Assembly (NCBI RefSeq): GCF_002868845.1
Contig: NZ_PKUB01000039.1
Span: forward strand, 1-62,775
Reading direction: 5' to 3'
Length of the DNA: 62,775 nt
From: Desulfuromonas sp.
Lineage (GTDB): Bacteria > Desulfobacterota > Desulfuromonadia > Desulfuromonadales > BM501
Below the pieces are notes generated by a model. The model was not told the DNA's origin and made no database searches. It saw only the letters and a program-made list of their open reading frames with translations. Both the position numbers and the translations under genes were made by a program. Every line of letters begins with the position of its first letter. The stretch's first letter is position 1. Positions 20,794 to 26,619 of this stretch are shown piece by piece.

Positions 20794-23328
20794 TCAGGGG
20801 GCGGGCGGCGGGGAGGCGAAGAAGGCCTCGATGCGGGCGAAGACCTCTTCGGTGGGGGCGGCCACGGTCTCGGCGTCGGGCAGGGAGCGCAGGAAGATGC
20901 GGCCGTAGCCCTTCTTTACCACCCGGGCATCGAGGATCAGCACCACCCCGCGGTCCTCCCGGTGGCGGATGAGTCGGCCGAAGCCCTGCTTGAACTTGAG
21001 CACTGCCTGGGGAACGGTGTACTCCATGAAGGGATCGCCGCCAGCCCTCTCGATGGCCTCGGCGCGGGCCTCGAGGACCGGCTCGGTGGGGACCTTGAAG
21101 GGGAGCCGGGCGATGATCACCTGCTCCAGGGCGCGTCCCGGCACGTCGACCCCTTCCCAGAAGGAGTCGGTGCCGAAAAGGACGCTGGTCGGGTCCTGGG
21201 CGAACTTTTGCAGCAGGCGGTGGCGGTTCTCCTCCCCCTGGCGCAGGCAGTGGTAGCCCCGGGCTGCGAGGACAGGCGAGAGTTCGGCGTGGACCCGCTG
21301 CAGCAGCGAGTAGGCGGTGAACAGGACGAAGGAGCGGCCGTCGGCGGCGAGGACCGCCCTCTCGACGAGGTCGCGAACCGCCTCCGGGAAGCCGGCCCGC
21401 CCCGGCTCGGGGATGTCGGTGGGGACCGCCACCAGGGCCTGGTGGGCGAAGTCGAAGGGGGAGGCCAGCAGCAGCTCGCCGACCCGCCCCGGCTCGGTCC
21501 GGTCGAGACCCACCCGGTGCCGGAAGAAGTCGAAGGAGGTGCCGACGGCGAGGGTGGCGCTGGTCATGACCACGGTCTTGAAGCGGTCGTAGATCGCCCG
21601 CTTGAGGTGGCCGGCCACCTCGAGCCAGGCGCTGCACAGGCGGGGGACGACCCCGCTGCCCCGGCCGATGCGACCCCGCTTCACCTCGATCCAGGAGCAG
21701 GTTCCCTCGGCGCAGGCGACGAAGCCGCCGAGATCGGAGGCGATCCCCTCGAGACGGGCGGCGATGCCCCGGATGTCCACCAGGTTCGAGGAGAGCTTGT
21801 CGTGGACCGCCTCGGGAATCTTGTCGCAGGCCCGGAGCAGCTCCCGGACCGCTTTCGCCAGCAGGCCCGTCTCCTTGGAGAGTTTCCTGACCCGCTCCTC
21901 GATCTCTCCCCAGGTCTCGCCGGCGGCGAAGGCCGGCACGATCCGGTGCCGGATCTCCTCCCTGTCGGAGAGCCGGCGGCCGAGGGACGCGGCCAGGTCT
22001 GTGCCGATCTGCTCCAGGTCCCGCACGGCGCGGTCGAAGCGGGCCTGGCGGTCGACCAGCAGGTTCTCCACCCTGCCGTGAAGGTCCCGGTAAAGCTCGT
22101 CCTCGCTGTCGGGCAGTTCCCGGGCGAGGCTTGAGAGGAAGCGGGGCAGGAGTCCCATGTCGGCCTTGCGGGGGTGGCGCAGGCGGTTCAGCACCCGGGC
22201 GAAGGAGAAGCGGGTGATTTGGGCTGAGAAGTAGTTTGTGGCCACGTCCTCCAGGTGATGGGCCTCGTCGAGGATGATCCGCTCGAAGGGGGGCAGCACC
22301 GCGGCGGCCGAGTAGTTGTCGGTCTGGTCGCGCAGGGCCAGGTCTGACAGGAGCAGGGCGTGGTTGACCACCAGGAGGTCGGCCTGGGCCGCCCGGCGGC
22401 GCGCCCGGTGGAAGAAGCAGGCGCCGTAGTGCTGGCAGCGCACCCGGGCGCACTGGTCGAACTCGCAGCGCACCTCCTCCCAGACCTGTTGCCGGGGGAG
22501 AAAGGTCAGCTCCTCTTTCGAGCCGTCGGCCGTCTTTGCCGCCCACTCGCCGACCGCGGCCAGCTCGCCGGCGTGCTCGTCGTCGAACAGGCCCGGCTCC
22601 AGGCGGGCGCTCTCCAGCCGCCGGAGGCACAGGTAGTTGCCTCGCCCCTTGACCAGCACCGCACGGAACTGCAGTCCGGAGACCCGCTGCAGGAAGGGGA
22701 TGTCCTTGCGGACGAGCTGCTCCTGGAGATTGATGGTGTTGGTGGAGACGACCACCCGCTCTTCGTTGCCCAGCGCCCAGAGGATGGCGGGAACCAGGTA
22801 GGCCAGGCTCTTGCCGGTGCCGGTGCCGGCCTCGACGACGCCCAGCTTCCCCCCGTTGAAGGCCTCGCCGACGGCGAAGGCCATGCGCAGCTGCTCTGGG
22901 CGATCTTCGTAGCCGGGCAGGCTCTTCGCCACCTCCCCGCCGGGCCCGAGGATGGCGTCGATCCGCTCCGGCTCGACCCGCTGCTCGGTGCGGGGAGCGA
23001 AGGCCTCGACCACCCGGTAGACCCTCTCCGCCCCGTTGTCGACGATGTAGAAGCCGACCCCGAGGGCGCCCAGCCGGGAGGCGATCTCGATGTCGGCTCC
23101 CGAGGGCTGAAGGTGGCCGGAGGGATGATTGTGGATGACGACCTCCCCGTGGGAGCAGGCCTGCATGATCGCCGGGACCGCCTCCTGCGAGCCGCGGGCC
23201 AGCACCTCCACCTCGACCACACGAAGGTCGGCGTCGGTGCGGCCGACGAAGAAGACCTCGTTGCCGCCGGCATCGGTGATCGCAGCCCGCATCAGCTGCC
23301 GGGCGTCGGGGGAAAAGCTTTGTTCCAT
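20794..23328 (-). CDS. DinG-type superfamily 2 helicase with N-terminal RadC-like JAMM domain
   Basis: Protein of 844 residues. The first ~100 residues form a JAB/JAMM metal-dependent domain with the motif HNHPSGHLQPSGAD, as in RadC. From about 130 a DinG/XPD-like helicase follows: Walker A VEAGTGTGKSLAY, the Fe-S cluster Cys residues (one in GNYLCLRR, then CEFDQCARVRCQHYGAC), the DEAH box ILDEAHHLEDVA, and late motifs (TDSFWEGVDVPG, QGFGRLIRHREDRG). It should unwind DNA 5' to 3' at the expense of ATP. The JAMM metal ligands (His, His, Asp) appear intact, so the added domain may cleave a peptide or isopeptide bond or merely bind. AAGGAG precedes the ATG. It is transcribed away from the V-ATPase operon. 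Confidence 0.88.
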   Translation of the reverse strand: MEQSFSPDARQLMRAAITDAGGNEVFFVGRTDADLRVVEVEVLARGSQEAVPAIMQACSHGEVVIHNHPSGHLQPSGADIEIASRLGALGVGFYIVDNGAERVYRVVEAFAPRTEQRVEPERIDAILGPGGEVAKSLPGYEDRPEQLRMAFAVGEAFNGGKLGVVEAGTGTGKSLAYLVPAILWALGNEERVVVSTNTINLQEQLVRKDIPFLQRVSGLQFRAVLVKGRGNYLCLRRLESARLEPGLFDDEHAGELAAVGEWAAKTADGSKEELTFLPRQQVWEEVRCEFDQCARVRCQHYGACFFHRARRRAAQADLLVVNHALLLSDLALRDQTDNYSAAAVLPPFERIILDEAHHLEDVATNYFSAQITRFSFARVLNRLRHPRKADMGLLPRFLSSLARELPDSEDELYRDLHGRVENLLVDRQARFDRAVRDLEQIGTDLAASLGRRLSDREEIRHRIVPAFAAGETWGEIEERVRKLSKETGLLAKAVRELLRACDKIPEAVHDKLSSNLVDIRGIAARLEGIASDLGGFVACAEGTCSWIEVKRGRIGRGSGVVPRLCSAWLEVAGHLKRAIYDRFKTVVMTSATLAVGTSFDFFRHRVGLDRTEPGRVGELLLASPFDFAHQALVAVPTDIPEPGRAGFPEAVRDLVERAVLAADGRSFVLFTAYSLLQRVHAELSPVLAARGYHCLRQGEENRHRLLQKFAQDPTSVLFGTDSFWEGVDVPGRALEQVIIARLPFKVPTEPVLEARAEAIERAGGDPFMEYTVPQAVLKFKQGFGRLIRHREDRGVVLILDARVVKKGYGRIFLRSLPDAETVAAPTEEVFARIEAFFASPPPAP

Positions 23329-23546
23329 GATTGCTCCTTCGCGCGGGCATTATAGGGGAGGGGCGGGGAAAAGGGAAGGGAGGGAGAGGGGTCGGCCGTC
23401 CGGGAGGCTTAATGGGCGGGAGCTCTGCGCTTCGCAGCCCCTCTGCTATACTTGGCTGAAAGGGACTATCTCGCGGCAATCATTGGAAGAATCGTTTCGG
23501 TGGCGGTTGGTCACGCCAAAACGGCCGCATCGAGGCAGGAGGTCCG

Positions 23547-23891
23547 ATGGAAGAGGGCACCCTCAGGGAAGTCGTCAGGCTGGAGCGGGAGATCCACCGG
23601 CAACTCGCCGAGGAGCAGTTGCGGGCCGACGAAGGGCTCGAACGACTCCGCCGGGAACTCGAAGAGGAATACGAGGAGCAGTCGAAGGCCCTGGCCGAGG
23701 CCCTGGAACAGGCCGTCGAGGAGGCGAAGCGACAGAGCGAGGAGCGGGCGGCCGGGATGCTGGCCGAGTCGCGCCGCCAGGCCGAGCGCCTGGCGGCGAT
23801 GAGCGATGAACAGCTGGGGAGGATCGTCCATAGGCAGATAGCCCTCATCGTGCCGGGAGAGGCGCATGATCGTCCGGATGTCGAAGGTTGA
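23547..23891 (+). CDS. V/A-type ATPase peripheral stalk subunit (H/G-like)
   Basis: Protein of 114 residues, almost entirely a charged coiled coil (REVVRLEREIHRQLAEEQL ... AKRQSEERAAGMLAESRRQ). It is the first gene of the operon, as in other bacterial V/A-ATPases, and would pair with subunit E to form the peripheral stalk. GGAGG precedes the ATG. Its last 26 bases overlap the start of subunit I. A TATACT box at 23447-23452 could be a -10 element for the operon, but no good -35 match accompanies it. Confidence 0.75.
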   Translation: MEEGTLREVVRLEREIHRQLAEEQLRADEGLERLRRELEEEYEEQSKALAEALEQAVEEAKRQSEERAAGMLAESRRQAERLAAMSDEQLGRIVHRQIALIVPGEAHDRPDVEG

Positions 23892-25752
23892 AATCGTCGG
23901 CACCAAGGGGCGGCTGATGGAGACCCTGACCCTGCTGCGGGAGCGCGGGGTGTTCCAGATCGAGCCGGAGATCGAGGAGCTGGCCGAGGGGGGCTACTGG
24001 GGCCGTGTCCGGGCCCTGGCTCCCGACGAAAAGGCCCTGTCGGAGCGGCTTTTTTTCCAGGACCTGCGGGACAGGATCGAGGAGCTCCTCTCCTACCTGC
24101 CCAAGGTCGACGTGCGCAGGGGCTATCTGGAGCCGCTGTCGGTGATCGACATTTTCCCGCCCCTGGTGGAGAAGCACCTGGCGGCGTGCCGGGAGCGGCA
24201 TCTGGCGAAGGAGTCGCGCCTGAAGGAGCTGGCCGAGTTCGGCGGCTACTCGGACCTGCTCGGAGCGCTGGAGCCCCTGCTCGAGGGGGTGGACCGGGAG
24301 ACCGGCCTGGAGCTGGTCGGGGTCACCATCAGGGCGCCGGAACTGGTCGGCCGTCTCCGCGAACTCGCCGAACAGATCACCGAGGGCCGCTTCCAGATGG
24401 AGACGGCCCGCTCGGAGAACGGCACCGTTGTGGGCCTGATCGCCACCGAGAAGGGGTTCGCCGACACCATCCGCTCGGCCCTGCAGGCCGAGCAGGTGCC
24501 GGAGATGACCTTTCCCGCCGGCTTTGCGGAGCTGCCTTTTGCCCAGAAGGCAGCAGCGCTGAGGGCCCAGTTCGCCGAGGTCGCCGAGCAGGTCGCGGTG
24601 CTCGAGGGAGAGCTGGAGGGTTTCGCCCGGCGCTGGCTTCCCATGTACCGGCGGGTCCGGGAGTGGCTCGAGGAAAGGCTTGCCCTGCTCCAGGTCACCG
24701 CCTCTGTCTTCGAGACCGAGATGTGCTTCTTCTGCCACGGCTGGGTCCCCTCGGCGGAGGCGGCGGCGCTTCGGCAGGTCCTCGCCGAGCGCTTCGGCGG
24801 CGAGGTCCACCTCGCGGTGAAAAAAATCCTGGAGCGGGATCTGGAGCGGGTCCCGGTCGCCCTGAAGAACCCCGCCTATTTCCGGCCCTTCGAACTCTTC
24901 GCCCGGCTGCTGCCGCTGCCCAGTTACACCTCCTACGACCCGACCCCCTTCCTCGGGATCTTCTTTCCCCTCTTCTTCGGCATGATCCTCGGCGACATCG
25001 GCTACGGGGTGCTCCTGCTGCTGGCCGCCCTGATCCTGATCCGCCTTTGCAGGGCCCGGACCCTTGTTTCCGACGGAGCCAAGATCCTCGGGGTTTCCGC
25101 CCTGTACTGCATTCTGTTCGGGATCCTCTTCGGAGAGTGCTTCGGCGACCTCGGCCACCGCCTGTTCGGGCTGCAGCCCCTCTGCTTCGAGCGCAGCGCC
25201 GCGATCGTGCCGATGATTTATTTCACCCTTTCCGTCGGGGTGATGCACGTCTGCCTGGGGCTCCTTATCGGGGCGTTTTCGGCCCTCAAGCGCAGGCTCC
25301 GCGGCGAGGCCATGTTCAGGTTGTTAAGCCTGGTGATCGTGCTCTGCGCCGTTGTGTTGCTGGTCGGCGTCATCGCACCCCTGCCCTGGCAGGTGAATCG
25401 CCCGCTGCTGGCCACGGTCCTGGTCGCCGCCCCGTTGCTGGTGCTCGCCAAGGGGCTGCTCGCGCCCCTGGAGTTGCTCAAGATTTTCGGCAACATTATT
25501 TCCTACGTCCGCATCATGGCCATCGGCCTGACCTCGGTTCTGCTGGCCCAGGTGGCCAACCGCCTCGGCGGGATGACCGGCGACATCGTGGCCGGCATCC
25601 TGGTGGCCGGCCTGCTCCATGCCTTCAACCTGCTGCTCGGGGTGTTCGCCCCCACCGTCCACTCCCTGCGTCTGCACTACGTGGAGTTTTTCGGCAAGTT
25701 CCTTGAGTTCGGGGGGCGCCGCTTCGAGCCCTTGGAGAAAGGGCCGAAGTGA
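23866..25752 (+). CDS. ntpI: V/A-type ATPase subunit I (membrane stator subunit a)
   Basis: Protein of 628 residues. The N-terminal cytoplasmic half (residues 1-320) contains a coiled coil and connects to the peripheral stalks. The C-terminal half carries about seven or eight membrane helices starting near FLGIFFPLFFGMILGDIGYG, the typical family signature. A conserved Arg in the IISYVRIMAIGL region lies next to the ring Glu and takes part in ion transfer. The ATG at 23866 has GGGAGAGG upstream and overlaps the previous gene. Confidence 0.92.
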   Translation: MIVRMSKVEIVGTKGRLMETLTLLRERGVFQIEPEIEELAEGGYWGRVRALAPDEKALSERLFFQDLRDRIEELLSYLPKVDVRRGYLEPLSVIDIFPPLVEKHLAACRERHLAKESRLKELAEFGGYSDLLGALEPLLEGVDRETGLELVGVTIRAPELVGRLRELAEQITEGRFQMETARSENGTVVGLIATEKGFADTIRSALQAEQVPEMTFPAGFAELPFAQKAAALRAQFAEVAEQVAVLEGELEGFARRWLPMYRRVREWLEERLALLQVTASVFETEMCFFCHGWVPSAEAAALRQVLAERFGGEVHLAVKKILERDLERVPVALKNPAYFRPFELFARLLPLPSYTSYDPTPFLGIFFPLFFGMILGDIGYGVLLLLAALILIRLCRARTLVSDGAKILGVSALYCILFGILFGECFGDLGHRLFGLQPLCFERSAAIVPMIYFTLSVGVMHVCLGLLIGAFSALKRRLRGEAMFRLLSLVIVLCAVVLLVGVIAPLPWQVNRPLLATVLVAAPLLVLAKGLLAPLELLKIFGNIISYVRIMAIGLTSVLLAQVANRLGGMTGDIVAGILVAGLLHAFNLLLGVFAPTVHSLRLHYVEFFGKFLEFGGRRFEPLEKGPK

Positions 25753-25808
25753 GGGGGCGCCAAGAGGCCGTCACCGACCCGGAAAGGGAGAGAAAGGAGA
25801 ATGTGTCC

Positions 25809-26024
25809 ATGGAAAAGGCGATAATCGCATTTGCCGCGGCTCTGGCGGTGGGACTGCCGGCCCTGGCCACGGCCTGGGCCCAGTCGCGCATCGGCGCCGC
25901 TGGAGCGGGGACCCTGGCCGAAAAGCCCGAATTGACCGGAACCATCATCATCCTGGTGGCCATTCCCGAGACCATGACCATCCTCGGCTTCGTGGTCTCG
26001 GTGATGATCCTGCTGATGTACTGA
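25809..26024 (+). CDS. ntpK: V/A-type ATPase subunit K (membrane ring proteolipid)
   Basis: Protein of 71 residues forming one helical hairpin. The ion-binding Glu lies in helix 2 (AIPETMTILGF). A Gln in helix 1 (AWAQSRIGAAG) and the Thr after the Glu align with the Gln and Ser ligands of sodium-binding rings, so Na+ use is possible (inference). The ATG at 25809 is preferred; a GTG at 25803 is in frame, and AAGGAG (25794-25799) is usable for either. The longer frame from 25749 adds a charged leader with no family support. Confidence 0.88.
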   Translation: MEKAIIAFAAALAVGLPALATAWAQSRIGAAGAGTLAEKPELTGTIIILVAIPETMTILGFVVSVMILLMY

Positions 26025-26028
26025 GCCC

Positions 26029-26619
26029 ATGAGCCAGGAGAAGCTTTTGGAGGCTCTGCGACGTCAGGGGGAGGAGAAGACCCGGGCGGTGCGGGAGCAG
26101 GCCGAGGCAGAGGAACAGAAGGCCCGCGGCGAGGCCCTGGAGCGGCTCGATCGGCTGGAGGCGGAGTTCCGGGAGCGGCGGGGCAGGGCCCTGGACGAGC
26201 AGTCCGGAGCCCTGCTGGGGGAGGCGGCCGCAAAGATGCGCAGGGTTCGCCTGGAGGCCGAGCATGCTCTGGCCGAGCGCCTCTGGAGCCTGGCCCGCGA
26301 CGCCCTGCCCCGACTTCGCGGGGACGGGTACCCGGCGGCCTTTGCCGGCCTGGTGGGGGAGTTGCACCCCCTCGAGTGGCAGACCGTTCGGGTCAACCCC
26401 GCCGACCGGGACCTGGCCGCCGGGCACTTCCCCGGGGCCGAGATCGGCACCGACCCGGGCATTGTCGGCGGCCTGGAGGCGGTCGCTCCGGGTGGAAAAG
26501 TCCGGGTCTGCTCCACCTGGGAAAAACGCCTGGAGAGGGCCTGGGACGAACTGCTGCCCGGCCTGTTCCGGGAAATCCGCCGTGAGCTGGAGGACGATGA
26601 CGCTGCTGCGAAGTCTTGA
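26029..26619 (+). CDS. ntpE: V/A-type ATPase subunit E (peripheral stalk)
   Basis: Protein of 196 residues. The N-terminal half is a charged coiled coil (MSQEKLLEALRRQGEEKTRA...), and the C-terminal half is a small globular domain (VRVNPADRDLAAGHF, then TDPGIVGGLEAV) that binds the catalytic head. It begins 5 bases after the K stop and overlaps subunit C by 23 bases. Confidence 0.88.
   Translation: MSQEKLLEALRRQGEEKTRAVREQAEAEEQKARGEALERLDRLEAEFRERRGRALDEQSGALLGEAAAKMRRVRLEAEHALAERLWSLARDALPRLRGDGYPAAFAGLVGELHPLEWQTVRVNPADRDLAAGHFPGAEIGTDPGIVGGLEAVAPGGKVRVCSTWEKRLERAWDELLPGLFREIRRELEDDDAAAKS

Follow-up and report, generated by a model that had tools for sequence, protein, structure and literature searches.

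A RadC-like JAB/JAMM domain joined to the DinG/YoaA-type helicase of Desulfuromonas sp.

The fused gene and its domains

We analysed a 62,775-nucleotide stretch of DNA from Desulfuromonas sp. (class Desulfuromonadia, phylum Desulfobacterota; contig NZ_PKUB01000039.1 of assembly GCF_002868845.1), hereafter the window, whose minus strand carries a gene in which a RadC-like domain of the JAB/JAMM type is joined to a DinG-type helicase. The gene is one open reading frame (ORF) that occupies positions 20794-23328 exactly as listed, starts with ATG and encodes 844 amino acids (aa). In this protein the Pfam family RadC matched residues 8-89 with 33 bits (cut-off 22.1, E 6.4e-8), and DEAD_2 and Helicase_C_2 also scored above their Pfam cut-offs. 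The N-terminal domain contains E24 ... H66-N-H68-x7-S76-x-x-D79, that is, the complete JAMM/MPN+ motif E ... HxHx7SxxD, in the spacing described for AfJAMM (PMC300881). The four cysteines of the iron-sulphur (Fe-S) site in the helicase part were all found in the DinG proteins sampled from the phylum, both fused (16/16) and unfused (20/20). The original prediction had described an intact metalloprotease-type motif covalently linked to a DinG helicase, and the Pfam domains, the ligand residues and the four cysteines confirm that intact JAMM-type ligands are joined to a DinG/YoaA-type Fe-S helicase of superfamily 2. The upstream glutamate E24, which had not been listed, is present and nearly invariant. 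Judged from its residues, the JAB domain is an apparently active metal-dependent cutting domain. The positions of the gene, its parts and one further gene of the same genome are as follows (A1 and A2 are alignments; MD1 and MD2, motor domains 1 and 2).

20794..23328, minus strand: whole gene, RadC-like (JAB/JAMM) DinG-type helicase, 844 aa (ORF; Pfam RadC, DEAD_2 and Helicase_C_2)
22999..23328, minus strand: N-terminal JAB/JAMM domain, about residues 1-110 (Pfam RadC at 8-89; separate model)
23257..23259, minus strand: upstream JAMM glutamate E24 (invariant in A1/A2)
23092..23133, minus strand: HNHPSGHLQPSGAD motif with H66, H68, S76 and D79 (JAMM spacing HxHx7SxxD; invariant in A1/A2)
22936..22998, minus strand: poorly conserved linker, residues 111-131 (mean column conservation 0.43)
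22204..22935, minus strand: MD1 with Fe-S insertion, residues 132-375 (DEAD/DEAD_2; match to 6FWS)
22807..22827, minus strand: Walker A GTGTGKS, residues 168-174 (K173 kept in fused and unfused proteins)
22417..22629, minus strand: Fe-S cysteines C234, C293, C298 and C304 (conserved in fused and unfused DinG)
22258..22269, minus strand: DEAH box, residues 354-357 (D354 and E355 conserved)
21649..22203, minus strand: Arch domain, about residues 376-560 (modelled as long helices; approximate boundaries)
20815..21648, minus strand: MD2 and C-terminal helix 826-838 (Helicase_C_2 at 659-818; model helix)
20965..20988, minus strand: helicase motif VI QGFGRLIR (R785 and R788 conserved)
23334..23339, minus strand: likely ribosome-binding site AAGGAG, just 5′ of the ATG
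Elsewhere in the genome, C22:55401-55802 (L299:1504-1917): HolC homologue (PF04364)

An AlphaFold2 model of the full protein reached a mean local confidence (pLDDT) of 89.8 and a predicted template modelling score (pTM) of 0.84. Its helicase part aligned with E. coli DinG bound to single-stranded DNA (6FWS; Z 38.0, root-mean-square deviation 7.1, 641 aligned residues) and with ExoDinG, the DinG of S. aureus (8ZEF/9II8; Z 36.6), and residues 826-838 are predicted to form a C-terminal alpha7 helix as in YoaA. When the JAB domain was modelled alone (pLDDT 89.9), the best Foldseek match was RadC 2QLC (E 1.1e-6), and VIA-align gave scores that were mostly tied, to within about one unit (Rpn11 Z 9.9, BubCD 9.7, PfJAMM1 9.2, RadC 8.6). 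The nearest of the listed structural matches of the isolated domain were RadC and proteases or deubiquitinases, and nucleases were absent among them.

Conservation, distribution and natural exceptions

Whole-protein searches recovered 136 proteins with a readable JAB domain, and 134 of these kept all five residues E/H/H/S/D. A second, pattern-guided set, biased by its construction toward conserved motifs, showed the five motif residues in 77/77 proteins with a complete domain. The ratio of nonsynonymous to synonymous substitution (dN/dS), calculated for pairs of relatives with the rough Nei-Gojobori method, was 0.105 for JAB, 0.061 for MD1, 0.073 for MD2, 0.136 for Arch and 0.131 for the linker; Arch is therefore the fastest-evolving domain, and JAB lies below it and somewhat above the motors. 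The retained motif residues and the dN/dS of the domain show strong selection on the metal site. Loss of the ligands throughout the family, which according to the original prediction would have spoken against its proposal, was not found among these proteins, although three lineages did lose ligands.

The fused form is the standard one of this helicase in the class: it was present, nearly always at full length, in 117/117 sampled genomes, and because these orthologues are colinear the fusion is not a chance observation. In a 297-genome sample of the phylum, fused proteins outside the class were confined to a few families, and most other genomes with a match had a separate JAB-less DinG of ~650 aa. 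Fused loci also occurred in records labelled KSB1, Planctomycetes, Acidobacteria, Spirochaetes, Myxococcales and Hydrogenedentota, many of them metagenome-assembled genomes. A helicase tree, with few outgroups from other phyla included, placed the fused proteins apart from 20 JAB-less proteins of the phylum (support: JAB-less clade 1.0, fused side 0.71) and is compatible with a single fusion event. An origin in mobile elements was considered and rejected: the matches listed over the JAB part included no phage and, as the sole plasmid-labelled record, a Fusobacterium replicon of 2.1 Mb. Separately, we observed RadC domains in open frames of ~2800-3300 aa (G019:C25:17135, G074:C2:323610, G082:C1:2775587), possibly polyvalent proteins of mobile elements, and JAB-less DinG proteins of the phylum (L162, L164) in open frames of ~1350 aa with ~650 extra N-terminal residues.

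In the window's genome the fused protein is the only Helicase_C_2 protein, and 15/16 other genomes with the fusion contained no second match above the cut-off. Since it is the sole helicase of its family there, the fused gene is probably the housekeeping DinG/YoaA-type helicase of the class. A stand-alone RadC is also found in nearly all of the 98 class genomes checked, so that the fused JAB domain is no substitute for RadC; the fused RadC-type domain is the only one in G034 and G105, and the stand-alone RadC of G028 looks broken.

Three lineages kept the JAB domain and lost the full ligand set. In G049, from the same order (L293), the motif positions read A/H/H/T/E, and in G171, from another class (L139), they read G/R/R/E/E with helicase motifs and cysteines intact; both proteins kept the helicase Pfam domains. 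The third is a single record from Fusobacterium vincentii (L298:2977-5445, 822 aa) that aligned over its full length with 32% identity; its N-terminus still scores 21.3 bits against the JAB profile (positions 2-106), E24 and both histidines are lost, and D79 is replaced by Glu. From their residues we regard these proteins as pseudo-JAB forms, parallel to the published pseudo-exonuclease DinG (pExoDinG). Although terminal branches are long, root-to-tip distances are ordinary, and we therefore do not claim that the helicase accelerated after JAB decay. A different exception is G050 (L195:3433-6400, also L210:8933-11900), which has no JAB domain and whose helicase ORF begins within the 3′ end of the only radC of that genome. 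When relatives of the same genus are compared, the sequence upstream corresponds to the radC locus of these relatives and that downstream to their helicase locus. The other genomes of the genus lack this arrangement, and an assembly error is possible in this single fragmented assembly. We found no earlier description of the ligand losses or of G050. As the ligands or the whole domain were lost in rare lineages that retain the motor, the putative catalytic step would be useful and yet dispensable for the helicase.

What the fused domain may do

DinG/XPD relatives translocate 5′ to 3′ along single-stranded DNA, as is expected of the fused motor too. JAMM enzymes of known chemistry hydrolyse amide (peptide or isopeptide) bonds, which makes protein the likeliest target of the JAB domain. 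The interpretation that we tentatively prefer is that this domain would cut obstacles met by the motor, most likely DNA-bound or crosslinked proteins. Where forks are blocked or gaps occur, the Fe-S motor would load on single-stranded DNA and meet an obstacle, which the fused JAB domain would cut; a DNA-bound or crosslinked protein may be unfolded by the motor and then cut, in the same way as FANCJ, an XPD-type helicase, unfolds crosslinked proteins and thereby opens them to cleavage by the SPRTN protease (PMC12279946; also PMC10175854). By analogy with this pair, a role as crosslink peptidase is plausible. The overlap of the only radC with the start of the JAB-less helicase in G050 is in favour of obstacle cutting. 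The idea that the fusion hints at function, put forward in the original prediction, is not novel: both Cheng 2025 and the Aravind group published this inference, the latter with the opposite chemistry, a nuclease.

Several observations weigh against obstacle cutting, beginning with the three lineages that lost the ligands. We are aware of no RadC-type JAB domain with a known substrate, metal or activity. RadC was described as lacking the groove for a ubiquitin-like tail, and a nuclease was favoured (PMC5512222, PMC3482391); nucleases stand at the same N-terminal place in other DinG proteins (ExoDinG, EndoDinG). Upstream of 101 fused genes, LexA boxes of the Geobacter, E. coli, Gram-positive and alpha types were not found above the level of shuffled sequences. 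Neighbouring genes are not conserved either (the largest family was present at 13/101 loci), so no repair partner is indicated. The window gene is flanked by a PilT-like ATPase (T2SSE) and a V-ATPase operon; the latter (subunits I, c and E; window 23866-26619) begins beside the helicase gene and lies on the other strand. Canonical radC lies ~0.1-2.4 kb from the fused gene in one family (L196-L202), 11-17 kb in another and often 50-120 kb elsewhere, and because this proximity may be inherited gene order we gave it little weight as functional linkage.

In a less probable explanation, the strand exposed by the helicase would be trimmed by the JAB domain, acting as a nuclease or nucleotide-processing enzyme in the manner of the DnaQ-type exonuclease of S. 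aureus DinG. The site is that of a JAMM hydrolase, we know of no JAMM nuclease, and the listed fold matches contained no nucleases; the DALI search of Cheng 2025 (PMC11981726) agrees, with metalloproteases rather than nucleases as matches of the RadC-like domain. The argument for a nuclease is drawn from position and gene context. The domain occupies the place of the ExoDinG exonuclease, in a protein for which exonuclease and helicase activities have both been demonstrated (PMC12345164), and the folds of JAB and deaminase domains are related. To a slightly lower degree, we consider that the domain might be mainly a binding or regulatory module that contacts DNA or protein or controls the motor, its ligands serving fold or binding more than cleavage. 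G049, G171 and F. vincentii, which keep the domain without the full ligand set in parallel to pExoDinG, are consistent with such a module; retention of five residues in 134/136 very diverged proteins, in a domain that is mostly variable, fits catalysis better. Least probable is that the JAB domain detaches a small protein, ubiquitin-like or not, that has been conjugated as a tag to a component of DNA repair or of the replisome. Although the fold is close to Rpn11, PfJAMM1 and bacterial BubCD, no conserved neighbour could encode such a tag or an enzyme that conjugates it (the rest of the genome was not searched for conjugation genes), and the groove for the ubiquitin tail is reportedly absent in RadC.

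Returning to obstacle cutting, its most specific form makes the protein a bacterial equivalent of FANCJ-SPRTN in a single chain, in which the helicase would unfold crosslinked proteins and a JAMM protease would cut them, possibly after recruitment to forks through HolC-SSB. By analogy this can be imagined, and we judge it unlikely; if true, a biochemical role would for the first time be assigned to a RadC-type domain. RadC is a common bacterial protein for which we know of no activity, and the presence of a RadC-type domain with an intact metal site within what is apparently the sole DinG-family helicase makes RadC function testable, with the natural ligand-free versions as ready controls to separate catalysis from structure. 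The small new facts are the three ligand-free lineages, the domain loss beside radC in G050 and the presence of HolC.

Comparison with known systems

The RadC-helicase architecture was already known and is not new. RadC fusions to DinG/Rad3 helicases were seen earlier by the Aravind group, who proposed a nuclease (PMC5512222, PMC3482391), and Cheng 2025 (PMC11981726) defined a ‘RadC-like DinG’ subgroup and modelled the protein of Desulfuromonas soudanensis, without experiments, marking four conserved residues, modelling a zinc and stating that RadC-like DinG had not been studied. Cheng also remarked, not as a formal criterion, that organisms with RadC-like DinG are without HolC, and hence considered another purpose probable for the YoaA-like C-terminal helix. 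In the window's genome, the one genome examined for this, HolC is not absent: a homologue of this DNA polymerase III chi subunit matched PF04364 with 101.4 bits (E 1.1e-28). It aligns to E. coli chi and, as read from the alignment, has Trp and Phe at the positions of W57 and F64, the chi residues named in PMC8378479. Equivalents of YoaA R619/T620 were not evident at the C-terminus of the fused protein, for which reason an interaction between the fused helicase and HolC is only possible.

Canonical RadC (2QLC) shares with the fused protein the JAB fold and the HNHPSG-PS-D motif (profile-profile match 97.3%). The label ‘RadC-like’ used in the original prediction therefore holds at the level of the superfamily and does not extend to canonical RadC: scores fell far below the equivalog cut-offs (PRK00024, 27.9 bits against 180; TIGR00608, 20.7 against 133.85), the upstream helix-hairpin-helix (HhH) part is lacking, and A1/A2 lack the HPRE segment and the D-H pair that are invariant among RadC proteins of the class (alignment A3), N98 taking the place of the histidine of the pair.

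The best-scoring helicase model was YoaA (NF053712), with 589.7 bits, below its equivalog cut-off of 680. Like E. coli YoaA, the fused protein has a C-terminal helix after MD2 and its genome contains HolC, so that both features by which Cheng recognises YoaA, the alpha7 helix (here predicted) and a HolC homologue in the genome, are found; unlike YoaA, it has the extra JAB domain and no LexA box, besides the difference at R619/T620. Type IV CRISPR CasDinG was rejected, as Csf4 TIGR03117 reached 104.3 of the 400 bits required and PADLOC models matched the helicase only. ExoDinG carries a hydrolase-type domain at the same N-terminal position, which in S. aureus DinG is a DnaQ-type exonuclease combined with a degenerate Fe-S site, whereas the window protein combines JAB with an intact one.

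FANCJ and SPRTN also pair an XPD-type helicase with a metalloprotease, in a division of labour similar to the one proposed here; they are two separate proteins and SPRTN is not a JAMM enzyme, which makes the comparison one of analogy and not of homology of the pair. The closest known system is RadC-like DinG itself, from which we found no difference in kind. The window protein has the N-terminal RadC-like domain with E24, H66, H68 and D79, followed by MD1, the four-Cys Fe-S domain, Arch, MD2 and, by prediction, the YoaA-like alpha7 helix, and thus shares with this subgroup the domain order, the E/H/H/D site, the four-Cys helicase and the broad taxonomic group.
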